Shown here: positions 6,699 to 18,635 of the stretch, in pieces
How the letters are laid out: each line of letters opens with the position of its first letter
Numbering within the stretch: position 1 is the stretch's first letter
NCBI GenBank assembly: GCA_030603745.1
Contig: JAUVXE010000003.1
Span: 62,001 to 126,000 of the forward strand
Length of the DNA stretch: 64,000 nucleotides
Source of the DNA: Coriobacteriia bacterium
GTDB lineage: Bacteria > Actinomycetota > Coriobacteriia > Anaerosomatales > SLCP01
Direction of reading: 5' to 3'
Made by a program: the position numbers and the translations under genes
The notes under the pieces: generated by a model
Told to the model about the DNA's origin: nothing
Seen by the model: only the letters and a program-made list of their open reading frames with translations
Databases searched by the model: none

Positions 6699-6777
6699 GC
6701 CCGCCGAGGGCCCCTGGTCGCGGTCGGACTCCCGGACGCCGGGCAGCCGCAGGGTATCCGGCATCGGAGTTGCTGCG

Positions 6778-6813
6778 TCCGCGGGTACGTGACCCCGTTC
6801 ACATACCCGCGGA
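6778..6813 (+). promoter_or_regulatory. Long inverted repeat containing a CRP-like operator
   Basis: Arms TCCGCGGGTA (6778-6787) and TACCCGCGGA (6804-6813) are perfect complements. The inner GTGA/TCAC extends the stem to 14 bp with one C/A mismatch and a 6-nt loop. It lies 80 nt after leuC without a strong U-tract, so it could terminate leuC weakly or be an extended operator for the TPR/NHL operon. Confidence 0.6.
6788..6803 (+). promoter_or_regulatory. CRP/FNR-type operator, site 1 (TPR-NHL operon)
   Basis: CGTGA-CCCCGT-TCACA, one mismatch from TGTGA-N6-TCACA. It is centred about 80 nt upstream of the start predicted from a TACACT -10 at 6864-6869. It belongs to a set of four such sites upstream of the cytochrome-block transcription units. 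Confidence 0.6.
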
Positions 6814-6927
6814 CGAAGCCCGTTTCCTTAACGGAGATTTCGTGAAGGCGAGCACGGATACAGTACACTGACGCGTGGCTCGCGACCGCGGGCCGGACCG
6901 ACCACCCGCTCACCGCTGGAGGACTCC

Positions 6928-7725
6928 ATGCCTGACGCAGGACCCCCGACGCTCGACCCCGGGCGCCCGGACGGCGACGAGCAGCAGCCCGCTGCCGCTC
7001 CCGCCCGCCCCAGCATGTTCGACGACCCGCTCGTGCGCCGGATGACCTTCGTCGCCGCAGGGCTGGTGATCGTCTTCCTCGCGACCGTGGTGGGTGCGCT
7101 CGTCACCGGCCTGCTCCTGCCCTCCGGCCCGCGCACGCTCACCGAGAAGGAGATCGCGGTGGCCGGCGAGGCGGTCAGGGCGGGCAGCACCGATCCCGAG
7201 GTCTGGGGGACCTACATCGCCGCACTCGTGGACGGCGGCCAGTATGGCCGCGCACGCTCGGTGATCGAGGACGCCCGCCGCAGTATCGACGATTCGGGTA
7301 CCGCGGAAATCCCGCTGGGAGAGGCGCGCCTCTACTCGGCGCAGGGTCAGTACGAGCGGGCCATCGAGTCCGTCGACGAGGTCAAGCGGATACTCGAGGC
7401 GGACCTCGAGACCCGGCTGGCATCGGGCGGGCGCATCCGTGAGGCCGCGCTGCTCGACGGATTGCACCCCAACTACGACATCGCGGCGCTGCTCAAGGCC
7501 TACGCGCTGGTAGAGCTCGGCCGCCACGAGGATGCGGTCGACGAGTTCACCATCTTCCTGGAGCGCAACCGCGGCGCTTCCGACGTGCTGGTCGATCGCG
7601 GCAACGCCAACCGCGAGGCGGGCGACACCGCCGCTGCGGAGGCCGACTACCGTGAGGCCATGCGCTTCATCCCCGACATGCCCCAGGCAGTAGAAGGACT
7701 CGAGTCGATCGGAGTCACGCCATGA
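6928..7725 (+). CDS. TPR-repeat membrane protein
   Basis: 265 aa from an ATG with GGAGG. The N-terminal about 35 residues are proline-rich and cytoplasmic. One membrane helix (about 40-66, FVAAGLVIVFLATVVGALV) is followed by an extracytoplasmic region of four to five TPR-like helical pairs, for example YGRARSVIEDARRSI, QYERAIESVDEVK and GRHEDAVDEFTIF. No catalytic motif is visible. The stop overlaps the start of the NHL gene by 4 nt, so the two are translationally coupled. It probably acts as a scaffold in assembly or export of the cytochromes encoded next; that role is inferred from context only. Confidence 0.82.
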   Translation: MPDAGPPTLDPGRPDGDEQQPAAAPARPSMFDDPLVRRMTFVAAGLVIVFLATVVGALVTGLLLPSGPRTLTEKEIAVAGEAVRAGSTDPEVWGTYIAALVDGGQYGRARSVIEDARRSIDDSGTAEIPLGEARLYSAQGQYERAIESVDEVKRILEADLETRLASGGRIREAALLDGLHPNYDIAALLKAYALVELGRHEDAVDEFTIFLERNRGASDVLVDRGNANREAGDTAAAEADYREAMRFIPDMPQAVEGLESIGVTP

Positions 7726-8984
7726 GCGACGTCCCCACCCCAGCCACCGTATCCGAGCAGTCCACGGTGCGCTCGCGCCGGGGCCGCCGCATCCTCGCGG
7801 TGGTGCTCGTGGTGCTCTTCATCCTGCTCGCGTTCGCCTCGTTCCTGCTGCTCCGCCTCCTCGTGCCGCCGGGGGGCCCCGGCGACGACACCGAGACGGC
7901 CGGCGTGACGTGGGTCCGCTCGATCTACGGCATGAGCTCGGCGATCGACGACCAGTTCGGTCGCACGCAGTCCGCCGCGCCGGCTCCCGACGGCACGATC
8001 TGGGTCACGGACGTCCAGCGGCGCGCGCTCATGGGCTTCTCGGCCGACGGCTCCTACATCGGCAGCATCACCGGCGAGAACGACATCCCGCTCGCGGTGG
8101 TCGGGCGCGCCACGGTCGGACCGGACGGGCTGTTCTACGTCTGCGAGACCAACCGCGACGTGGTCCGCGTCATCGACCGGGACGGTAACGAGGTCAGCTC
8201 GTTCGGTATCCCGAGCCCGGTCTCGGTCGCCGTGAGCGAGGACCGGATCGTCGTGGGCTCCGTCAACGGGTTCGCGATCCTCGACAAGGAGGGCAACCCG
8301 CTCCACGTCATCGGTTCGCGTGGCCAGGAGGACTGGCAGTTCGACTACGTCCACGGCGTCGCGATCGCCGAGAACGGCAACATCTATGTCGCCGACTCAT
8401 TCAACAACCGCCTGAGCGGGTACGACCCCGAGGGCAACCGCCTCTGGATCGTGCGCACCGGTAACCCGAGCAATCAGGCCGACATGATCGACGGCCGCCT
8501 GACGGTCCTCGACGCCGAGGACGTCTCGCTCCAGCCCGGCGAGACGCTCCAGTTGCCGCTCGGGCTCACGCTCGACGGCGCGGGCCGCATCGTGGTGGTC
8601 GACATGTTCGAGAACACGCTCGCGGTCTTCTCCACCGAGGACGGCTCGTTCATCGGCCGCTACGGCGACGTGGGCGCCAACGACGGTCAGTTCTTCTATC
8701 CCCAGAGCGTGAGCTACGACGCCGGGCGCGACTGGTTCCTCGTGGCCGACAGTCTTAACAACCGGGTCCAGATCGTCCGCATCCCGGACTCCGCCGGCGG
8801 GGGAGACCTCGCAGCCGCCGTCCGGCGCGCTCTGGCCGGTCCGCTGCGCGCCTGTTTCCTGCCGCTGTTGCTCCTGCTCATCGCCCTCGTGGTCTGGCTG
8901 AGCGCGCGGGCGGCCCGCAAGCGCAGGGAACAGCGCGAGCTGGCGGCCTCAGCGCAGGACCTCTCCGTCGATCCGGCGCTCTGA
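7722..8984 (+). CDS. NHL-repeat beta-propeller membrane protein
   Basis: 420 aa. An N-terminal helix (about 24-48), then a six-bladed NHL/SMP-30-like propeller (about 62-355) with repeated blades such as GVAIAENGNIYVADSFNNR and GLTLDGAGRIVVVDMFENT, then a second helix (about 375-397) and a basic cytoplasmic tail. The propeller is therefore outside the membrane and tethered at both ends, an unusual arrangement. NHL propellers often sit beside extracellular multiheme cytochromes and act as binding platforms. It overlaps the TPR gene by 4 nt and lies 260 bp before the hexaheme cytochrome. Confidence 0.85.
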   Translation: MSDVPTPATVSEQSTVRSRRGRRILAVVLVVLFILLAFASFLLLRLLVPPGGPGDDTETAGVTWVRSIYGMSSAIDDQFGRTQSAAPAPDGTIWVTDVQRRALMGFSADGSYIGSITGENDIPLAVVGRATVGPDGLFYVCETNRDVVRVIDRDGNEVSSFGIPSPVSVAVSEDRIVVGSVNGFAILDKEGNPLHVIGSRGQEDWQFDYVHGVAIAENGNIYVADSFNNRLSGYDPEGNRLWIVRTGNPSNQADMIDGRLTVLDAEDVSLQPGETLQLPLGLTLDGAGRIVVVDMFENTLAVFSTEDGSFIGRYGDVGANDGQFFYPQSVSYDAGRDWFLVADSLNNRVQIVRIPDSAGGGDLAAAVRRALAGPLRACFLPLLLLLIALVVWLSARAARKRREQRELAASAQDLSVDPAL

Positions 8985-9038
8985 CCCCCGGGAGACCGAA
9001 ATAACAATTCTTAACACTTCATTAAAGCAAGTTAGGGG

Positions 9039-9067
9039 TTGAGGAATCAGCACCCGCGCGGTACGAT
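9039..9067 (+). promoter_or_regulatory. Promoter of the hexaheme cytochrome gene
   Basis: TTGAGG (9039-9044), 17-nt spacer, TACGAT (9062-9067). The inferred start near 9074 leaves a 5' UTR of about 170 nt. The region just upstream is markedly AT-rich for this genome (AATTCTTAACACTTCATTAA), resembling an UP-like element. Confidence 0.6.
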
Positions 9068-9083
9068 ACTCACAAGGTCTACA

Positions 9084-9099
9084 TGTGTGTCCGTTCACA
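9084..9099 (+). promoter_or_regulatory. CRP/FNR-type operator, site 2 (hexaheme cytochrome)
   Basis: TGTGT-GTCCGT-TCACA, one mismatch from the CRP consensus. It starts about 10 nt downstream of the inferred transcription start, a position more compatible with repression than activation. Confidence 0.6.
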
Positions 9100-9112
9100 A
9101 GCGGCGCACAGC

Positions 9113-9170
9113 GACTGAGCGGCAGTCACGTAGACGCGGACGGAGACACCTCCGGGCCACGGATGCGTCT
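9113..9170 (+). promoter_or_regulatory. Structured 5' untranslated region of the hexaheme gene
   Basis: Two nested or tandem hairpins: GACTG/CAGTC (9113-9117, 9123-9127), then an outer stem GACGC/GCGTC (9133-9137, 9165-9169) enclosing CGGAG-ACAC-CTCCG (9141-9154). GTCTAC near 9077 can also pair with GTAGAC near 9130. It fits no riboswitch family I can name and may stabilise an abundant mRNA. Confidence 0.4.
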
Positions 9171-9244
9171 GTAATCTTCAGCTTGGGAAAGGAGGTGCGC
9201 ATATGAAACAAGCGTTCACAATTCGATCAACTGAAGGAGTTTCC

Positions 9245-10312
9245 ATGAAGAAGGGTATGCTCGTCGTTGCCCTCGCGGTCGTCTTCGCCCTTGCCTTTGC
9301 GGCGCCCGCGTTCGCAACCGCTGCTAAGACCTGGAACTGGGGTACGGACTACTACACCTGGGGTTCCCCGATCGGCTCTGGCGTAGCGACCAACTCGCCC
9401 AAGCTCTTTGAGCTCGGCGCCAACCCGACCAACCCGGGTGTCCACGGCAACTACCTCGCCAACACCGCCAAGTGCGGCATCTGCCACTCGGTCCACCGCG
9501 CCACCGCGGGCGGCGTCAAGCTGCTCAACACCAGCGTCGCCACCTGCGAGGGTTGCCACGCTGCCGGTGGTACCGTCACCGACGTGGTCGTCGCCTGGGG
9601 TACCGGCGCCGGCCCGCACGGCTCGAGCACCCCTGGTGGCTGCCTCGGCCGCTCGTGCCACATGAACAACCCGCACGGCGCCAACGGCTCGCAGTACAAG
9701 ATCGTCGCTGCCAAGCTGCTCTCGCCGAACACCGATGCTCGCCTCGCCTACGCGCTGGCCGACCCGGTCGCCTCCGGCATCACCGTTGACGACCTCAACG
9801 CCGAGCCGAGCTCGACCTGGGACGAGGACATCCGCTCCTCCGTCCGCACCGGCTACAACTGCAACCAGGCCGGCTGCCACGTCCAGACCCTGCTCACGGT
9901 CCTCAACCCGGGCTACTCCGAGCAGAAGTACGTCGACTACAACAACGCGTACTGGGACAGCGTCGGCGGTCGTTCGCTGGCCAACGGTGGCTACGTCATG
10001 AAGACCGGTCACGTCACTCGTGACATCGATCCGGACCTTGAGCGTGCGTTCGCGCCGGTCACCACCTGCACGAGCTGCCACGATCAGACCGACGACGGCG
10101 TCAACAGCGGCTACACCTTCCCGCACGCCCAGACCCCGTACGGCACCAGCAACTTCGGTGCTGGCCGCGCCTGGCTGTGGATGGGTTATGCCGGCGACGT
10201 CAACACGGCCCCGGTCGGTATGGCCAACATCTCCGACAAGGCCTTCGACGGTGCCTGCCTCAAGTGCCACCGCGACAACGTCAACAACTCTGGTATCGGT
10301 CTCACCCACTAG
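9245..10312 (+). CDS. Secreted hexaheme c-type cytochrome, candidate extracellular filament subunit
   Basis: 355 aa from the ATG at 9245 (ribosome binding site GAAGGAG). This start gives a textbook signal peptide, MKKGMLVVALAVVFALAF, cleaved after AFA (residue 24). A second in-frame ATG at 9203 also has a strong AAAGGAGG and would add 14 residues. Six heme sites occur in order: CGICH, CEGCH, CLGRSCH (CX4CH), CNQAGCH (CX4CH), CTSCH and CLKCH. Seven other histidines (PGVHGNY, SVHRA, GPHGS, NPHGA, TGHVT, FPHAQ and the C-terminal LTH) can serve as distal ligands. No membrane anchor or cell-wall sorting signal is present. Codons are rich in GGT, unlike neighbouring genes, which suggests high expression. 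It is homologous to the last half of the 13-heme protein at 16707. A strong terminator follows. Filament formation is inferred. Confidence 0.9.
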   Translation: MKKGMLVVALAVVFALAFAAPAFATAAKTWNWGTDYYTWGSPIGSGVATNSPKLFELGANPTNPGVHGNYLANTAKCGICHSVHRATAGGVKLLNTSVATCEGCHAAGGTVTDVVVAWGTGAGPHGSSTPGGCLGRSCHMNNPHGANGSQYKIVAAKLLSPNTDARLAYALADPVASGITVDDLNAEPSSTWDEDIRSSVRTGYNCNQAGCHVQTLLTVLNPGYSEQKYVDYNNAYWDSVGGRSLANGGYVMKTGHVTRDIDPDLERAFAPVTTCTSCHDQTDDGVNSGYTFPHAQTPYGTSNFGAGRAWLWMGYAGDVNTAPVGMANISDKAFDGACLKCHRDNVNNSGIGLTH

Positions 10313-10327
10313 AGCGTGTTGATGCCG

Positions 10328-10351
10328 CTTGAAGGTCCCTGACCTTCCAAG
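10328..10351 (+). other. Short hairpin after the hexaheme gene
   Basis: CTTGAAGGTC-CCT-GACCTTC-CAAG pairs over 10 bp with one bulged C. It lies between the stop codon and the main terminator and may protect the 3' end of the transcript. Confidence 0.5.
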
Positions 10352-10361
10352 CGAGACAGAG

Positions 10362-10395
10362 GAGCCGGTCCCCGTGAGGGGGCCGGCTCTTTCTG
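10362..10395 (+). terminator. Rho-independent terminator of the hexaheme cytochrome
   Basis: A 12-bp GC-rich stem (GAGCCGGTCCCC / GGGGGCCGGCTC, one T-G wobble) closed by a GTGA tetraloop and followed by TTTCT. It isolates the hexaheme gene as a monocistronic unit. From 10396 to 10527 I see nothing. Confidence 0.85.
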
Positions 10396-10527
10396 TGCGC
10401 GGGGTGTCGGGTGAGGAGGCGGGCGGGTGGCGGCGGGCTCGTCGGATCGCCTCGGCGGGCGGGTGGCGGAACCGCGATTCTCTGCGAGCTGACCTGGCGG
10501 GCGATCGATGTCCGGTTCACACCGCGT

Positions 10528-12324
10528 CTACCGTGCGAGGCGCTCCAGCTCCGCCCGTGCGGCCTCGTCGAGGTCGAACTCGAGCGCCCGGGCCGCGGCG
10601 CGGGTCGCCTCTTCGGCGAGTCCGAGCCGCTCGGCCTCGAGCGCGGCGATGGCGTCCCAGATGCCCGAGGAGGGATCGGAGGCGCGCGACGCCTCGACGA
10701 GCTCGGCGAATGCCGGGAAGCGCTCGGGGCGGCCGGTCTGGAGGGCCCGGGCGGTGTCGAGGTGGAGGAGCGCGAGATCGGCACGCCACGCGACGACGTC
10801 CGTGGTCTCGTCCATGAGCCGCTCGGCGGCGAGGCGGGCGCGCTGGTCGCCGGAGGCCACGGCGGGCCAGAGACGGTCGAGCGCCACCACGGCGAAGGCG
10901 GGGTCGGGCCAGCGGTCGTAGAGCGCGACGACGCGCTCGGGGGCCGGGGCGGGGGCGCCCTCCCGGGTCATCTCCGCGTACGCGCGCTGGGTGGAGAGCG
11001 CCGGCACCGCCGCGACGCCGAGCGCGAGCGCGAGCGCCGCGGTCGCGGCGGCCACCGCACGCCCGGGCGCGGCCACGCGTGCGGGTTCCGCGTCCGGCGT
11101 CGCGGCCCGCTCGGATCCGGGGTGTCGCGTGGCGGCCGCTCCGAGCGCGGCGCCGGTCATCGCGCAGGCCGCGACCATCGCGGCGGGGGCGATCCAGCCC
11201 ACGAGCCCCACGCCCATGAGCGCGGCCGGTGTCGCTGCGAGGAGCGCGCCGGCGACGCCTCCCCGGCGAAGCAGCGCGGAGCACGCCCAGACGAGCGCCG
11301 TGAAGGCGGCGAAGAGCAGGAGGCCGCCCGCCGCGCCTCCACCGAGCACCACGCCGAGGGGGACGTTGTGCGGGTCGAACGTGAGGCGTCCGGTCTGCAC
11401 CTCCTGCCCCACGACGCTCCAGCGGATCCAGCCGGTGAACTGCTCGAGTCCGGAGCCGACGATGGGTGACTGGCCGATCTGCGCGAGCACCGGACGCCAG
11501 ACCGCGTCGCGCCCGCTGCCGAGCGCGCCGATGGCCTCGGCGAACCCCTCGCCGAGCCGGCCCGCCGCTCCGAGCGCGAGGAGCGCCGAGGCGCCGGTCG
11601 CGGCGATCGCCGAGCCGAGCGCCAGCGCGGGAGCCGCCCGCCGCTCACGCGTGAACCTGAGCGCGCCGGCGAACACCGCTGCGCAGAGCACGCCGAGTAT
11701 CCCCGTTCGCGAGTCGGCGAGCGCGATCCCCGCCACGCAGGCGAGCGCGAGCGCGGCCCCCGCGGCCTTGACCCCGGGGCGGCGTGTCCCGACCGTGAGC
11801 ACCGCGGCGGCGACGAGCGCGATCGCGAGGAACCCGCCAAGGGAGGCGGAGTTCTCGAACACGCCGCTCGGCTCGACCGAGCCGGGTGCGGGGCCCGCCA
11901 CGAGCGCGGCCACCACGAACACGCCGCCCGCGGCTGCGAGCACGCTCACGAGCGCGCGAACCATCCGCGCGTCGGCCAGCAGTACGCCCGCCACGAGCCA
12001 GGCGGCTCCTGCCGCCCACAGCGCGGTGCCCTGGTGCAGCGCGATCGCCCCCACGAACGAGATGCGGGGCTCGTGCGCCAGCGCCGAGGTGAGGGCGAGC
12101 CAGCCGAGCAGCGGGAGGAGCGCGAGCAGGAAGGCCGTGAGCGGACGCGGCAGCGGGCGCGCGGGGGCGAAGAGCGACAGGGCGGCGAGCGCGCCTCCGC
12201 CCAACAGGCCGGTGAGCGTCACCGCGGCCGGGGCGAGCGTGCCCGGGAAGGCGAACATCGAGGCGAGCACCGCCGCGAGCGCCCACGGGTAGGCCTGGCG
12301 GGCGAGTTCGGGAAGTCGCTGCAT
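10528..12324 (-). CDS. Wzy_C / O-antigen-ligase-like membrane protein with helical C terminus (second of three)
   Basis: 598 aa. The ATG at 12324 (MQRLPELARQAY) has GAAAGGG upstream; a start 36 nt earlier is possible. About 11-12 membrane helices, then a large loop with GSGLEQFTGWIRW and DPHNVPLGVVLGGG carrying the expected His, then two or three helices and an extracytoplasmic helical tail of about 170 residues rich in Ala, Arg and Glu. It is the only minus-strand gene in the cytochrome block and is divergent from the dodecaheme operon, with which it shares a 204-bp regulatory region. Role as for the copy at 3420: lipid-linked glycan polymerase, ligase or protein O-oligosaccharyltransferase, not distinguishable here. 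Confidence 0.8.
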   Translation of the reverse strand: MQRLPELARQAYPWALAAVLASMFAFPGTLAPAAVTLTGLLGGGALAALSLFAPARPLPRPLTAFLLALLPLLGWLALTSALAHEPRISFVGAIALHQGTALWAAGAAWLVAGVLLADARMVRALVSVLAAAGGVFVVAALVAGPAPGSVEPSGVFENSASLGGFLAIALVAAAVLTVGTRRPGVKAAGAALALACVAGIALADSRTGILGVLCAAVFAGALRFTRERRAAPALALGSAIAATGASALLALGAAGRLGEGFAEAIGALGSGRDAVWRPVLAQIGQSPIVGSGLEQFTGWIRWSVVGQEVQTGRLTFDPHNVPLGVVLGGGAAGGLLLFAAFTALVWACSALLRRGGVAGALLAATPAALMGVGLVGWIAPAAMVAACAMTGAALGAAATRHPGSERAATPDAEPARVAAPGRAVAAATAALALALGVAAVPALSTQRAYAEMTREGAPAPAPERVVALYDRWPDPAFAVVALDRLWPAVASGDQRARLAAERLMDETTDVVAWRADLALLHLDTARALQTGRPERFPAFAELVEASRASDPSSGIWDAIAALEAERLGLAEEATRAAARALEFDLDEAARAELERLAR

Positions 12325-12411
12325 AGCGGCCCTTTCGCATCGGAGACTCCTGCCCGCCATGGTATCCCACCCGGCCGTGACGGGACGAGCCGCCCCGACC
12401 CGTGGAACCCG

Positions 12412-12427
12412 CGTGAACTCCTTCACA
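12412..12427 (+). promoter_or_regulatory. CRP/FNR-type operator, site 3 (dodecaheme operon)
   Basis: CGTGA-ACTCCT-TCACA, one mismatch from consensus. It is centred about 63 nt upstream of the start predicted from the extended -10 at 12468-12476, close to the class I CRP activation position. Confidence 0.65.
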
Positions 12428-12467
12428 GCAACTCCATTCCTGGTACGTCGGTTGCAGCGTCTGAGCG

Positions 12468-12476
12468 TGGTATATT
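12468..12476 (+). promoter_or_regulatory. Extended -10 promoter of the dodecaheme operon
   Basis: TGG-TATATT is a near-consensus extended -10. No acceptable -35 stands at 16-18 nt (TTGCAG at 12452 is only 13 nt away). This fits a promoter that depends on an activator such as one bound at 12412-12427. Confidence 0.6.
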
Positions 12477-12528
12477 CACATCTCCCGGCCACCGGTGCCG
12501 GGCTGCCGTCGATCCGAGACGAGACCTC

Positions 12529-13485
12529 GTGTCACAGACGCCCCGACGCTCGAATACCGCCCTCGTGTGGCTCATCGTGGCCGTTCCGGTGCTGGTGCTG
12601 ATCGCCATCGCCGGAGTCGGCGTGGCCGGGCAGCCGCAGTGCGCTGCCTGTCACTCGGGCGACGCCTTCCTCGCGGCGACCGACGCCGGGGCGCACGGCT
12701 CGCTCGCCTGCGGGGAGTGCCACGGGTCGACGCGGCCGCTCGAGCGGGCCGCCACCGGCTACCGCACCCTCGCCCACGCGCTCAGCGCCTCCCTCGGCGG
12801 GGCGCGCGGCGAGTTCGCCTCGGTCCCCGACACGCGCTGCCTCGCCTGCCACGCCGCGGTCGACGAGGGGGTGGTCACCGCCCAGGGGCTGCGCGTGGAC
12901 CACATCGTCTGCGCCGAGGGCTCGCGGTGCACCGACTGTCACTCGCCCACCGCACACGGCGAGGCGACCCGCTGGGTCCGCGTCTACGACATGGACACCT
13001 GCCTCGAGTGTCACCTCACCCAGGCCTCGGCCGAGTGCGACACCTGTCACGCCGGCCGGCCGCCCGCCGAGCGGGTGACCTCGGGCGTCTTCGCGATCAC
13101 CCACGGCCCCCAGTGGGAGCAGACCCACGGGATGGGCAACTCGGCGACCTGCTCGGCCTGTCACACGGCGGCCGCCTGCGAGCGGTGCCACGGCCCGGGG
13201 CTCCCGCACGACCGCGACTTCATGCGCGTGCACGCGGCGCTCTCGCAGACGCCCGAGGCCCGGTGTATGGACTGCCACGAGACGCGTTTCTGTAACGAGT
13301 GCCACGGGCTCGACATGCCGCACCCGCCCGCGTTCGTGCAGGGTCATGCCGCCGAGTCCGAGGAGAACGAGGCGCTCTGCCGCCGTTGCCACGTCGAGTC
13401 CGACTGCGTGACGTGCCACGTCACCCACGTCCACCCGGGCGGGGCGATCGGCACGCTTCCTCCGGACGGGGGGCTGAACCAGTGA
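12529..13485 (+). CDS. Membrane-anchored dodecaheme c-type cytochrome A
   Basis: 318 aa from a GTG. One N-terminal membrane helix (about 11-33) anchors an extracytoplasmic domain with twelve CXXCH sites between residues 38 and 297 (CAACH, CGECH, CLACH, CTDCH, CLECH, CDTCH, CSACH, CERCH, CMDCH, CNECH, CRRCH, CVTCH). Heme density is about one per 22 residues, typical of electron wires rather than enzymes. The frame is open 495 nt further upstream, but that part is antisense to the divergent ligase-like gene. The stop overlaps the next start (GTGA). No substrate-site signature such as NrfA CXXCK is present, so an electron-relay role at the membrane or cell wall is most likely. Confidence 0.92.
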   Translation: MSQTPRRSNTALVWLIVAVPVLVLIAIAGVGVAGQPQCAACHSGDAFLAATDAGAHGSLACGECHGSTRPLERAATGYRTLAHALSASLGGARGEFASVPDTRCLACHAAVDEGVVTAQGLRVDHIVCAEGSRCTDCHSPTAHGEATRWVRVYDMDTCLECHLTQASAECDTCHAGRPPAERVTSGVFAITHGPQWEQTHGMGNSATCSACHTAAACERCHGPGLPHDRDFMRVHAALSQTPEARCMDCHETRFCNECHGLDMPHPPAFVQGHAAESEENEALCRRCHVESDCVTCHVTHVHPGGAIGTLPPDGGLNQ

Positions 13486-14684
13486 ACGGCGAGTTCCAGC
13501 TCTCGTGGGAGCGGCTTCCGCAGGACCTCTGGACGCTGCTGATCGACCCGGGCTCGAACCTCGGCGCGGCGCTCACGCTCTACGCGATCATCGGCACGTT
13601 GTTCGTGATCATCCTCGTGATCGCCATCCTCTTCATCATGTCCACGCCCGAGGAGGAGGAGCATGCGGCTGCCGCGGCCGGCGGAACCGCCCCGGGCGCC
13701 GGAGCGCCGGAGCGGGCCGAGGCCCCGCAGGCACCGCCGCGCACCCCGCGCGCGGTTCTGGCCACCGCAGGCATCTGGATCGCGATCCTCGCGCTCGTCT
13801 GGGTCGCGACGGGCTACGCCAGCTCGACGGCGGTCGTCTGCGAAGGGTGCCACGTGACGACCCCGCACGCGCAGGCCGCCGAGGGCACCGACCCCCACGA
13901 GAGCGTCACCTGTGTCGCCTGCCATGAGCCCGGCGGACTCGCGGGGCGGTTCGTGCTCGACGTGCCCGCGCGTGTCCTGCACGTCACCGACGGGATGATC
14001 GAGCGCACCCTGCAGGAGGGGTACGGCCAGGTGAGCCGCTCCTCGTGCGAGTCGTGCCACCGGGGGGCGCTCGACGGCGTGACCTTCGACGAGGCCCGCG
14101 GGCTTCGCATGTCGCACGCCGAGCCGCTCGAGGCCGCGGCGCGCTGCCTGGACTGCCACACGCTCCGTGACGGCGTGGTGGGCGCGCACAACGCGGGGAT
14201 GAACCCGTGCCTGCGCTGCCACGATTCTCAGACCGCCTCGGCGGAGTGCTCCACCTGCCACGACCGCAACGCCGCGGCCGCGGCCCGGCCGCGCACCGCC
14301 TCCTTCGCGGCGCAGCAGGTCGAGCAGCCCCGGTGCGGCTCGTGTCACGACGAGGAACGCTACTGCGACCCCTGCCACGGCACGCGCATGCCCCACAGCA
14401 ACGAGTTCATGGCCTACGCGCACGCGCGGCCCGCGGCGATCGATTTCTGGACGAACCGGGGCCGCATGTGCGCCCAGTGTCACACGCGTGAGCGGCGCTC
14501 GTGCCAGCAGTGCCACACGAACACCCTCGGCAGCGGCCACGGACCCGGGCTTCGCACGAGTCACGTCCAGGCCGAGGAGCCCGCGTGCAACCGCTGCCAC
14601 CAGCGGTGGGCGTTCAACCCGCAGCGCGACTTCTGCGTGGACGTGTGCCACAGCGAGGCCGCGATCGAGGCGAGCCGGTTCTAG
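13482..14684 (+). CDS. Membrane-anchored dodecaheme c-type cytochrome B with one CX3CH site
   Basis: 400 aa, GTG start overlapping cytochrome A by 4 nt. Two membrane helices (about 30-53 and 91-112) flank an acidic and Ala/Pro-rich linker that should be cytoplasmic, leaving the heme domain outside. Eleven CXXCH sites run from CEGCH (residue 120) to CNRCH. A twelfth, CVDVCH (385-390), has three residues between the cysteines instead of two. Its arrangement suggests a quinol-side or inner-wall relay partner for cytochrome A. The following ligase-like gene starts 8 bp downstream, so all three are probably one operon. Confidence 0.9.
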   Translation: MNGEFQLSWERLPQDLWTLLIDPGSNLGAALTLYAIIGTLFVIILVIAILFIMSTPEEEEHAAAAAGGTAPGAGAPERAEAPQAPPRTPRAVLATAGIWIAILALVWVATGYASSTAVVCEGCHVTTPHAQAAEGTDPHESVTCVACHEPGGLAGRFVLDVPARVLHVTDGMIERTLQEGYGQVSRSSCESCHRGALDGVTFDEARGLRMSHAEPLEAAARCLDCHTLRDGVVGAHNAGMNPCLRCHDSQTASAECSTCHDRNAAAAARPRTASFAAQQVEQPRCGSCHDEERYCDPCHGTRMPHSNEFMAYAHARPAAIDFWTNRGRMCAQCHTRERRSCQQCHTNTLGSGHGPGLRTSHVQAEEPACNRCHQRWAFNPQRDFCVDVCHSEAAIEASRF

Positions 14685-14692
14685 GGGGGCGC

Positions 14693-16591
14693 ATGGCACG
14701 GGAGCAGGTCGGGTCGCAGGGGTGGCGCGGCGCCACTGTCACGGCGCTCGTGGTGATGGCGTTCCTCTCGCCGGGCGCGTGGTTCGTGCTCCGCCTGCCG
14801 CCGGTCCCGGTGGCCAAGGCGCTGCACCTCGCGACCGCCGGGATCTGGCTGCTCGCCGCGGGCCTCGCGCTCGTGCCGCTCGCCCGCCTCGACCGCCGCG
14901 TCGCGGCGGCGCTCGGACTCGTGGCGGCGGTCACGGCGGTCTCCTGGCTCGCGCACGGCTCGCTCTTCGCGGTCGCGTTCTACGATCTGTTCGCCAACAT
15001 GCCGCTCGTGCAGTGGGCGGCGTTCCCGGCGGTCTTCACGGTCGCCGCGTGTCTCGCGGTGGGCCGGGAGTCCGTCGAGCGGGCGCTCGCGGCGACCGTG
15101 GCGCTCGGCGGGGTCCTCGGCGTGGTGATGACCTACCAGTTCTTCACCACGGCGCCGCAGGTCTTCGGCAGCACGGGCTACAGCCTCACCGCGCTCGCCC
15201 CGCTCGTGCCGGTCGGTGCGGTCCTCGCCGCGGGCGCGACCGGGCGCACGCGGGCGCTGTTCGCCCTCGCGAGCGCCGCGGTGCTCCTGGCGCTCGGCGC
15301 GTTCTCGGGGGCGCTCATGGGCGCGCTCGTGGCGGTGCTGACGGTGCTCGTGACCGTCGCCGCGCTCGCGGCGGGTCGCGGGGGAGCGGCGGAGGGCGGG
15401 GCGCCGCGAGCGGCGCGGGGGGCGGTCAGGACGGTCGCGCTCGGAGTCGCGGGACTCATGTTCGCGGTGATGCTTCTGGCCCAGGTCCCCGCGATCAGCG
15501 GCGGGGTGGCCGGGCCCGAACGCCTCGAGGAGGCGGGGGCGGGCCTGAGCTTCGTCTCCCGCGCCCACATGTGGGCCGGCGCGCAGGCGATGTTCGCCGA
15601 CCGGCCGCTGCTCGGGTTCGGCCCCTCGGGATACCGTGTCGCCGCGGTGGAGTACCTGCCGCCGCAGGCGCTGCAGTTCATCCCCGACCGGCCCGACAGC
15701 ATCGACCCGACCGTCTATAGCCCCCAGTCCCCGCACTCGCTGCTCTGGGAGATCGCGACCCGCCTCGGGCTCGTCGGCCTGATCGCGTTCGGCGCGCTGT
15801 TCGCCGCCTGGGCCGTGGCGCTGCGTGACGCCCCGCGGCCCGACGCAGGTACGGCGCGCTTGCGCGCCGGACTCGCCGCCGGGTTCGTGGCCGCGCTCTT
15901 CTCGCTGCAGGTCAACCCGGTGCTCTTCCCGATGGGCCTGGTGGTCCCGGCGCTCGCCGGCCTCGCCGTGGCGCCGCTGGGCCCGGACGTTCCCGCGCGG
16001 GCGCCGCGCGCGGACGGCCCGGCCGGGACCGGCCGATGGACCGGCGCGCGCATCGCGCTCGTGGCGTCGGGCGCTGTCCTGGCCGGCGCGGCGCTCTGGC
16101 TCGGCGTGGGCGAGTGGCGCGCCGAGACCGGGCGCTCGTCCGACCCCTTCGAGCAGATCGCGCTGCACGAGCGCACGCTCGCGGCGCTGCCCGGTCATCC
16201 GCAGATCGAGCGGGAACTCGCCGAGCTGCGGCTGCTCGTCGCGCCGGACGCCCCCTCGGTCGCCGCGGCGCAGGCGGCGGCCGACGCGCTTCCCGCGCAC
16301 GTCGCCCGCTTCGCGCCCAACCTCGTGAGCCTCGCCACCTACTCGCTCGCGCAGGCCGAGCGCACCGGCCGCGACGATCTGAGTTGGGAGGACGCCCGCC
16401 TGTCGCACGCCGAGGAGGTCCTCCCGCCCACACCCGCGCTCGTCGCCGAACGCCTGCACCTCGCGGTCCTCTCCGGTGATGTCGCCGCCGTCGAGGCGGC
16501 GCTGCCCGCGGCCCGTGAATGGGGAGGGTTCTACCCGTTCACGGAGGCCTATCTCACCGCCGCCGAGCAACTCCTCTCGGCCAGCGATTAA
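14693..16591 (+). CDS. Wzy_C / O-antigen-ligase-like membrane protein with helical C terminus (third of three)
   Basis: 632 aa from the ATG at 14693 behind AGGGGGG, 8 bp after the dodecaheme B stop, so cotranscribed with the cytochromes. About 12 membrane helices; the ligase loop contains GFGPSGYR and PQSPHSLLWEIATRLG with the characteristic His. The last about 170 residues (from WRAETGRSSDPFEQIALHE) are extracytoplasmic helical repeats. Operon placement directly behind cytochromes is hard to explain for an ordinary O-antigen enzyme in a cell with no evidence of LPS. It is the best candidate for a protein O-glycosyltransferase acting on the cytochromes (inference). Confidence 0.8.
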   Translation: MAREQVGSQGWRGATVTALVVMAFLSPGAWFVLRLPPVPVAKALHLATAGIWLLAAGLALVPLARLDRRVAAALGLVAAVTAVSWLAHGSLFAVAFYDLFANMPLVQWAAFPAVFTVAACLAVGRESVERALAATVALGGVLGVVMTYQFFTTAPQVFGSTGYSLTALAPLVPVGAVLAAGATGRTRALFALASAAVLLALGAFSGALMGALVAVLTVLVTVAALAAGRGGAAEGGAPRAARGAVRTVALGVAGLMFAVMLLAQVPAISGGVAGPERLEEAGAGLSFVSRAHMWAGAQAMFADRPLLGFGPSGYRVAAVEYLPPQALQFIPDRPDSIDPTVYSPQSPHSLLWEIATRLGLVGLIAFGALFAAWAVALRDAPRPDAGTARLRAGLAAGFVAALFSLQVNPVLFPMGLVVPALAGLAVAPLGPDVPARAPRADGPAGTGRWTGARIALVASGAVLAGAALWLGVGEWRAETGRSSDPFEQIALHERTLAALPGHPQIERELAELRLLVAPDAPSVAAAQAAADALPAHVARFAPNLVSLATYSLAQAERTGRDDLSWEDARLSHAEEVLPPTPALVAERLHLAVLSGDVAAVEAALPAAREWGGFYPFTEAYLTAAEQLLSASD

Positions 16592-16602
16592 GAAGATCAA
16601 GG

Positions 16603-16631
16603 TTTACGGGGGCGACGAATCGCGGTATCTT
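16603..16631 (+). promoter_or_regulatory. Candidate promoter of the 13-heme gene
   Basis: TTTACG (16603-16608), 17-nt spacer, TATCTT (16626-16631); 4/6 matches in the -35. It overlaps operator site 4. An alternative -10, CAGAAT at 16688-16693, would place the operator near -61. Confidence 0.4.
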
Positions 16632-16646
16632 GTGATGAGTATCACA
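16631..16646 (+). promoter_or_regulatory. CRP/FNR-type operator, site 4 (13-heme cytochrome), perfect consensus
   Basis: TGTGA-TGAGTA-TCACA matches the CRP/GlxR consensus exactly, and the symmetry extends one more base on each side (TTGTGAT...ATCACAA, 16630-16647). It is the best of the four sites. Confidence 0.75.
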
Positions 16647-16706
16647 ACAACGGACTCTCGCATGCGTCCGTAGGGGGATCCAAGCCACAGAATCGGGGGG
16701 ATTCGC

Positions 16707-18635
16707 GTGGTCACCGCTTCATCTGCGACCCGCATGGGGGTGCGGGCCGGTCTCGGCGTACTCGTCGTGCTGCTCATCGCGCTCGGGCTCCTGCTCGCCT
16801 CGGCGGCTCCCGCGCATGCGATCGCGCAGTTCCAACCCTCGTCGTTCCTGCCCGCCAACGGGTCGACCGTGGGGGTCGCCCGGCCCACCATCGGCTTCAC
16901 GTACACCGACACGGTGCCGGGGCCCAAGCGCGTGATCGTCCGTCTCAACAGCCAGGTGGTGTTCGACCAGGTGGTGCCGCAGGGCGACGTGCGGTTCAAG
17001 CCGGGGTTCGACCTCAGCAACAACACCACGTACGCCGCGCAGGCGACCGTGGTCGGCTCCACCACCGTGAACTCCTACTGGAGTTTCTCCGTGGTCGCCG
17101 CGCCGGGCATGACGTTGACGGGCGACTGCATGGAGTGCCACACGACCTACCCCTCGGCCCACTCTCTCGACACCTGCTCCGGATGCCACGGGGCGCCGTG
17201 GCCGTTCTCCTACCATCCCAACACCGGTCCCGGCAGCGACGGGGCGCCGGCCGGCCGGTGCGTGCAGGTCGGGTGCCACGGGATCGTGGCCGACACCTCG
17301 CTCTTCGTGCACGGGAGCGAACTCTACGAGACAGACCCCTACGCGCCGCTCTCGCCACTCTCCCGCTACCGCTCGACCTACCCGTGCACTTACTGCCACT
17401 CGGCCACCTATCCGGCCATCCCGCGGCACTCGACGGCAGGACTCGAGGGGACGCATCAGGACGCCATCGGCGGCAGCTCGTGCGAGGAGTGCCACAGCAA
17501 CTCGCTCATCGAGGAACACGCCAGGTTCCCGCTCGACTCCGAGTTCAAGCACCAGTGCACGCTCTGCCACGCGAGCACGCGGGTGCGCGTGCAGCAGGCG
17601 ATCGCGAGCAGCGACACCCGGTGCGACTCGTGCCATCCGAACCTCCACAACAAGTCGTGGAGCTATCCGGACTACTACCAGTGGAGCACCGGTTTCGGCG
17701 ACGGGAGCGGGACCCCGCTCAGCGAGCTCGGCTCCAACCCGCTCTATCCGGGCGTGCACGGCAACTACCTCGCGACCACCGCCAAGTGCGGGGTGTGCCA
17801 CTCGGTCCACCGCGCGCGGGGTGACGGCGTGAAGCTGCTCAACACCGCGGTCGCCACGTGCGCCGGGTGCCACGGCGCCGGGACGTCCACGGTGACCGAG
17901 CTGACCGTGAGCTGGGCCGCCGGCGGTCCGCACCGCTCGGGTGACGCGGCGCAGTGCACCGTGCGCTCCTGCCATCTTGACAACCCGCACGGCGCGGGCG
18001 GTTCGCAGTACGCCATCGTCGCGGCCAAGCTGCTGAATCCCGCGACCGACGCCGCGCTCGCCGAGGCGGTCGCAGACCCCGCCGCCTCTGGGATCTCCGT
18101 CGCCGACCTGAACGCCGATCCCGCCTCGACCTGGGACGAGGCGACACGGTCCGCCGTGCGCACCGGCTACAACTGCAACCAGGCGGGCTGCCACGTGCAG
18201 ACGCTCCTCGCGGTGCTCGACCCCGAGTGGGGCGAGACGCGCTACGCCGACTACGACAACGCGTACTGGGAGAGCGTGGGCGGACGCACGCTGGCCAACG
18301 GAGGCTACGTCGCCAAGACCGGTCACCTGAGCGTGGCCGAGGCAGGCGCCACGGCGTTCGTCCCGGTCACGAGCTGCGTGAGCTGCCACGACCAGACCGA
18401 CAGCGCCACGGGCAACGGCGCGACCACGGTCTCAGGCTACACGTTCCCGCACTCGCAGACGGCTGTGGGCGACAGTGACTACCCGGGCAGGGCGTACCTG
18501 TGGATGGGCTACGCCGCCGATGCGGGAACCGCCCCCACCGGGATGTCCTCGCTCGAGGAGAAGGCCTACGACGGCGCGTGCCTCAAGTGCCACCGCGCGG
18601 CGGGCGGCGCGGGCGGGGTCGGAATCGACTTCTAG
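16707..18635 (+). CDS. Secreted 13-heme cytochrome with an Ig-like N-terminal domain and a hexaheme C-terminal module
   Basis: 642 aa from a GTG. Signal peptide (1 to about 38, ending AHA). Residues about 40-130 form a beta-rich Ig/fibronectin-like domain without cysteines (FLPANGSTVGVARPTIGFTY). Seven heme sites follow (CMECH, CSGCH, CVQVGCH, CTYCH, CEECH, CTLCH, CDSCH). From about residue 314 to the end comes a module with six more sites (CGVCH, CAGCH, CTVRSCH, CNQAGCH, CVSCH, CLKCH) that aligns with the whole mature hexaheme protein, including both CX4CH sites and six of its seven extra histidines. The hexaheme C-terminal His is replaced by DF. It has no anchor, and is probably a cap, base or connector for the hexaheme assembly (inference). 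Confidence 0.9.
   Translation: MVTASSATRMGVRAGLGVLVVLLIALGLLLASAAPAHAIAQFQPSSFLPANGSTVGVARPTIGFTYTDTVPGPKRVIVRLNSQVVFDQVVPQGDVRFKPGFDLSNNTTYAAQATVVGSTTVNSYWSFSVVAAPGMTLTGDCMECHTTYPSAHSLDTCSGCHGAPWPFSYHPNTGPGSDGAPAGRCVQVGCHGIVADTSLFVHGSELYETDPYAPLSPLSRYRSTYPCTYCHSATYPAIPRHSTAGLEGTHQDAIGGSSCEECHSNSLIEEHARFPLDSEFKHQCTLCHASTRVRVQQAIASSDTRCDSCHPNLHNKSWSYPDYYQWSTGFGDGSGTPLSELGSNPLYPGVHGNYLATTAKCGVCHSVHRARGDGVKLLNTAVATCAGCHGAGTSTVTELTVSWAAGGPHRSGDAAQCTVRSCHLDNPHGAGGSQYAIVAAKLLNPATDAALAEAVADPAASGISVADLNADPASTWDEATRSAVRTGYNCNQAGCHVQTLLAVLDPEWGETRYADYDNAYWESVGGRTLANGGYVAKTGHLSVAEAGATAFVPVTSCVSCHDQTDSATGNGATTVSGYTFPHSQTAVGDSDYPGRAYLWMGYAADAGTAPTGMSSLEEKAYDGACLKCHRAAGGAGGVGIDF

Follow-up and report, generated by a model that had tools for sequence, protein, structure and literature searches.

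A probable CRP-type operator set and its candidate regulator at multiheme cytochrome genes of a Coriobacteriia bacterium

The multiheme cytochrome block of this uncultured, anaerobic Coriobacteriia bacterium carries four palindromes that are very probably real CRP-type operators. Judged by sequence, these four and their counterparts across the genome are a real CRP-type operator set, ordinary in kind, with a candidate regulator. The reading that we favor, and consider reasonably probable, is that the four sites are operators bound by the dimer of a single CRP-family protein, encoded outside the block on contig C14, whose regulon would be genome-wide and which would occlude RNA polymerase at the 13-heme and hexaheme promoters and activate at the 12-heme promoter. 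The window analyzed is a stretch of 64,000 nucleotides (G000:C3:62001-126000) from a source genome of 2.14 Mb in 28 contigs; unprefixed positions are counted from its first nucleotide.

Four CRP-type sites in the cytochrome block

The motif YGTGW-N6-TCACA occurs four times in the 64-kb window, where shuffled sequences lead one to expect 0.24 matches. The motif scan placed CGTGACCCCGTTCACA (6788-6803) before the TPR-NHL operon and within a strong hairpin, TGTGTGTCCGTTCACA (9084-9099) before the hexaheme gene, CGTGAACTCCTTCACA (12412-12427) in the divergent gap before the 12-heme gene, and the perfect site TGTGATGAGTATCACA (16631-16646) before the 13-heme gene; no strand is assigned to any of them, and their centers lie at -132.5, -153.5, -109.5, and -68.5 from the respective start codons. 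When one mismatch to TGTGA-N6-TCACA was allowed, the same four remained the only matches in the window. All of them lie between genes, in a window of which just 5.8% is intergenic. Of 29 permutations of the half-sites, not one produced an intergenic match in the window. Each promoter-bearing gap of the block (6699-6927, 8985-9244, 12322-12528, and 16592-16706) holds one site, and the convergent gap at 10313-10527 holds none. The first-pass annotation had reported these four palindromes, the last as perfect, had put the expectation at well under one per 64 kb, and had noticed none elsewhere in intergenic DNA; every coordinate was confirmed, and the last observation holds even with one mismatch.

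Genes were called with our own hexamer-based caller, not taken from a standard annotation, and all but one lie on the forward strand. The TPR-NHL operon begins with a TPR protein (6928..7725; Pfam TPR_16, synteny) followed by an NHL beta-propeller protein (7722..8984; Pfam NHL); we found nothing in the literature on NHL proteins next to cytochrome filaments. The hexaheme cytochrome (9245..10312), assigned from its sequence with four CXXCH and two CX4CH motifs, is conserved in the order; it matched no solved structure by sequence, and its predicted structure has a mean pLDDT of 28.8, too low to be of use. Between it and the 12-heme gene lies, on the reverse strand, an O-antigen-ligase-like gene (10528..12321; Pfam Wzy_C) that was not found at the corresponding place in relatives. 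The 12-heme cytochrome (12529..13485; Pfam Cytochrome_C7), which has an N-terminal hydrophobic stretch and whose gene was found in 51 of the 61 genomes of the order, heads an operon with a second multiheme cytochrome (13482..14684; Pfam Cytochrome_C7 and Cytochrom_c3_2) and, at its end, an O-antigen-ligase-like membrane protein (14681..16591; Wzy_C slightly below the cut-off, synteny). The 13-heme cytochrome (16707..18635; sequence and Pfam) contains ten CXXCH and three CX4CH motifs. Over its C-terminal half it shares 65% identity with the hexaheme protein, a likeness that by sequence reflects a fusion or a duplication. Among named records, the closest that have these cytochromes are metagenome-assembled genomes of Coriobacteriia and other actinobacteria (HGW-Actinobacteria-6, UBA912); we take the genome to belong to the order Anaerosomatales (OPB41). 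Throughout the order the block is conserved with a largely colinear arrangement, and leucine genes often adjoin it. The sites had been proposed to tie the TPR/NHL and ligase-like genes to the cytochromes, a link that this order-wide synteny carries better than the sites do.

The site at 6788 is the weakest of the four. It lies within an inverted repeat (6776..6815, forward strand, ends approximate) with a near-perfect 16-bp stem (z-score -5.4), so that being a palindrome does not count as independent evidence for it. The hairpin is located about 90 bases behind leuC and, by its sequence, may be the leuC terminator or an extended operator. In favor of an operator, its position matches that of counterparts in two relatives, G026 and G039, in which no comparable hairpin was evident by eye.

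Conservation at orthologous genes, with upstream distances taken from called gene starts, was uneven, and permuted controls were near zero. Among 13 homologues of the 13-heme gene with an upstream gap, three have a site (two in G002 and one in G026), and a further one precedes a truncated copy in G055 (L155:922). The TPR site has counterparts at 2 of 21 orthologues, those of G026 and G039, where it stands at -136/-137 relative to the start codon, compared with -140 here. No counterpart was found at 15 orthologues of the hexaheme gene or at 32 of the 12-heme gene. Relatives lacking the sites at orthologous genes had been named in advance as evidence against a shared regulon; that pattern holds for these last two genes, and the other half of the set does have counterparts. 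In relatives the 12-heme gene usually stands directly behind the hexaheme gene; here the opposite-strand ligase-like gene comes between them, and the 12-heme gene therefore needs a promoter of its own, which may account for the restriction of its site to this lineage.

Distribution of the motif in the genome and the order

Across the source genome, TGTGA-N6-TCACA with at most one mismatch occurs at 31 places, compared with 3 for the reversed control. In the fetched stretches, most of them around sites, 24 of the 31 are intergenic in DNA that is 7.1% non-coding (p = 4e-22). The looser YGTGW-N6-WCACR occurs at 39 places, and the CGTG...CACG forms seen among them are mixed between coding and intergenic DNA. 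Further TGTGA-type sites precede a multiheme cytochrome gene at 71 kb of contig C10, a 15-heme gene at 32 kb of C10 (two sites), a sortase gene, and an NAD synthase gene, and others lie near a NiFe hydrogenase on C14. With sites at other cytochrome, hydrogenase, and further loci, the regulon would be larger than the block. The earlier proposal that one regulator controls the whole block as a single regulon thus stands as to operators and a matching regulator, but not as to extent; likewise, the rarity that it ascribed to the motif is true of the window and not of the rest of the genome.

One alternative is that the block sites are mostly chance matches or hairpin by-products of intergenic DNA. 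The 16-bp stem around the 6788 site and the lack of conservation at the hexaheme and 12-heme genes are in keeping with this explanation; the gap between four observed and 0.24 expected matches, the failure of all permuted half-sites, and the intergenic placement of most genomic sites argue against it, and we regard it as very improbable.

Several loci with sites have features of their own. On C14, NiFe hydrogenase genes (L019:382-5759) and a CRP-family gene (L019:10648-11346) are located within about 10 kb, in a stretch with four TGTGA-type sites at no more than one mismatch. A paralogous block on C10 (L021:4528-8354) starts with the gene for a Rex-like redox repressor and also encodes an NHL-like protein and a 7-heme cytochrome; behind it come two TGTGA sites and the 15-heme gene, whose product has 1875 aa. 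A second NHL-cytochrome block on C16 (L029:4114-8716) has three TGTGA-type sites. Besides the site upstream of the sortase gene (L031:5811), one was seen in G045 ahead of the gene for a similar-looking protein (L204:2497). Small membrane proteins of 56-66 aa and similar make-up are encoded behind TGTGA sites in several genomes (L028:5869-6039; L221; L228; L230); the one searched against Pfam had no match.

Together, the order's 61 genomes contain 183 perfect sites against 15 matches to the reversed control, a 12-fold excess, and 42 of 48 distinct perfect sites examined in relatives are intergenic. Genes adjoining sites include 8 multiheme cytochromes among 53, compared with none of the 138 genes surrounding crp (p = 2e-5); in a stricter comparison with non-target neighbors in the same loci (7 of 146), the excess of cytochromes is less marked (p = 0.03). 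Perfect sites in relatives were also seen before genes that we named by eye as AtpI-like and Rrf2-like (L177; L233; L186; L206; L223).

A CRP-family protein encoded on contig C14

The genome encodes three proteins with a cyclic-nucleotide-binding domain, on C14, C12, and C20, and only that on C14 (G000:C14:72647-73342; L019:10648-11346; 232 aa when counted from an ATG at L019:10648) possesses a recognition helix of the CRP type. Its matches to PF00027 (72.5 bits), PF13545 (43.9), and PF00325 (26.0) all exceed the cut-offs, and it has the N-terminal cyclic-nucleotide-binding domain and C-terminal Crp-type helix-turn-helix of the CRP/FNR superfamily. In E. coli CRP, the Arg, Glu, and Arg of the recognition helix read TGTGA. 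The helix of the C14 protein and of the 29 orthologues examined is TSRETASR, which has the Arg-Glu-x-x-x-Arg pattern. Against NF008732, the E. coli CRP equivalog model, it scores 109.7 bits where the cut-off is 266, and it is on sequence a member of the CRP family and not a CRP equivalog. The nucleotide pocket reads FGEMSLVDAEPRSA, and Gly-Glu...Arg-Ser is present in all orthologues shown except that of G002. In the latter (L137) the pocket Arg-Ser is lost, with PLNV in place of PRSA, and the G002 genome keeps its sites. A class III cyclase domain is encoded at C20:2541-3014.

An FNR-type oxygen sensor was considered and rejected: the 232 residues of the C14 protein include no cysteine, and it would therefore lack an Fe-S cluster of the FNR type. 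As candidate regulators, the C12 protein was set aside for its FNR/Dnr-like recognition helix and the C20 protein for want of a helix-turn-helix. The CRP/FNR-family regulator postulated at first pass thus has a matching homologue, with an own-promoter site in its orthologues, but one that is CRP-type and not FNR-type.

Of the order's 61 genomes, 53 have a single orthologue of the C14 protein, that of G056 being divided between two contigs; the 36 Coriobacteriia genomes sampled from other orders yielded none. In the source genome a site lies about 41 bases before the crp start codon. TGTGA-type sites precede 17 of 29 crp orthologues at up to one mismatch and 21 of 29 at up to two, most commonly as TGTGTCTCAAGTCACA or a close variant; permuted controls gave 0-1 and 0-8, except for GATGT (8 and 19), whose excess probably arises because it overlaps this conserved stretch. 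Perfect-site density is 1.59 per Mb in genomes with the regulator and 0.32 per Mb in those without (p = 0.0005, relatedness ignored), the latter being a group of eight genomes, five of one genus and some incomplete. Regulator presence also accompanies presence of the 12-heme gene (50/3/1/7 for both, regulator only, gene only, and neither; relatedness ignored).

These properties make the C14 protein the likely regulator reading the sites. That the motif is real and is read by another regulator, or shared by several CRP/FNR proteins, we consider improbable: genomes without a C14 orthologue do still exceed the reversed control at one mismatch, but perfect sites are five-fold rarer in them, neither the C12 helix nor the C20 architecture suits the motif, and the conserved site is present at the promoter of crp itself. 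Under the favored reading, the C14 regulator would control its own gene together with targets across the genome, among which multiheme cytochromes recur.

Predicted promoter geometry and known systems

Promoters were predicted with an approximate E. coli-like sigma-70 matrix; a strict consensus scan found none. Relative to the predicted starts, the sites are centered at -80.5 (TPR), +17.5 (hexaheme), -63.5 (12-heme), and +0.5 (13-heme), which reproduces the distances of -80, +17, -63, and about +1 given by the first-pass annotation. Among these four promoters only that of the 13-heme gene (TTTACG-17-TATCTT, 16603..16631, forward strand) scores clearly above shuffles, 1% of which score as high, and the last base of its -10 box is also the first of the site. 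The +0.5 geometry recurs at the 13-heme promoters of G002 (TTGACA-17-AATAGT) and G055 (TTGACC-18-CATAGT). At cytochrome genes of other relatives the site fills the -35/-10 spacer in four cases (-18.5) or is centered near -51 in three (-50.5/-51.5).

Of 18 cytochrome sites, 15 have a high-scoring promoter, compared with a shuffle mean of 2.9, and 11 overlap the predicted core promoter, compared with means of 0.75 for shuffles and 5.0 for random placement (p = 0.001); the overlap p-values are optimistic because the score threshold and overlap interval were chosen after the geometry had been seen. Sites on predicted core promoters suggest repression at several cytochrome promoters, and from the predicted promoters the regulator probably represses several cytochrome genes rather than activating them. 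At the 13-heme gene the operator would sit on the transcription start, directly behind the -10 box, and at the hexaheme gene just downstream of the start, so that occlusion of RNA polymerase is likely at both. A ligand, plausibly a cyclic nucleotide, would relieve or impose this occlusion. The 12-heme promoter lacks a good -35 box, and the site at -63.5 would fit activation, being placed as for class I activation. The original expectation that the regulator activates some units and represses others agrees with this predicted geometry; binding, ligand, and sign of regulation are our inference.

In Shewanella oneidensis MR-1, CRP with cAMP activates omcA-mtrCAB from sites at -61.5/-60.5, as established by gel shift and deletion (PMC4417206). 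The present system resembles it in that TGTGA-type half-sites stand immediately in front of multiheme cytochrome genes for extracellular electron transfer (PMC4417206) and that the regulator belongs to the CRP family. It differs in that the operators are predicted, that most cytochrome sites lie on the core promoter as predicted, and that the organism, an actinobacterium, is only distantly related. By predicted starts only the 12-heme site (-63.5), and neither the 13-heme (+0.5) nor the hexaheme site (+17.5), is near the Shewanella position of -61.5. A regulator that mainly activates the cytochrome genes, as in Shewanella, would agree with that precedent, with the 12-heme site and its poor -35 box, with the TPR site at -80.5, and with the relatives' sites near -51; it is nonetheless unlikely given the 11 of 18 cytochrome sites on core promoters, several of which have near-consensus -35 and -10 boxes.

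Among actinobacterial CRP-family proteins, GlxR of Corynebacterium glutamicum and Rv3676 CRP of Mycobacterium tuberculosis bind TGTGA-N6-TCACA sites, and the solved actinobacterial relatives that match the C14 protein include 3d0s and 3r6s. Unlike GlxR and Rv3676, the C14 lineage is distant in sequence and, as sampled, confined to the order. FNR/Dnr regulators, for which anaerobic respiration is a typical target, share superfamily and fold with the C14 protein, but the latter has no cysteine and a different recognition helix, and a separate FNR/Dnr-like protein is encoded on C12.

We also advance, tentatively, a broader reading in which an order-restricted, autoregulated CRP-family protein, acting mainly as a repressor, gates the cytochromes of extracellular electron transfer from operators in the promoter spacer or on the start, with operators repeatedly gained and lost while gene order stayed fixed. 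What is known of extracellular electron transfer in Gram-positive bacteria comes largely from gene lists. Multiheme cytochromes are described in the paper on the earliest cultivated representatives of the order Anaerosomatales (OPB41), the text of which mentions neither CRP nor cAMP (PMC9686372); an earlier description of such an operator set for this bacterial group was not found in the literature searched. The candidate regulator and its defined operator offer a testable handle on when the cytochromes are produced, and the site list yields candidate co-regulated genes, among them the hydrogenase, the sortase, and the small membrane proteins.
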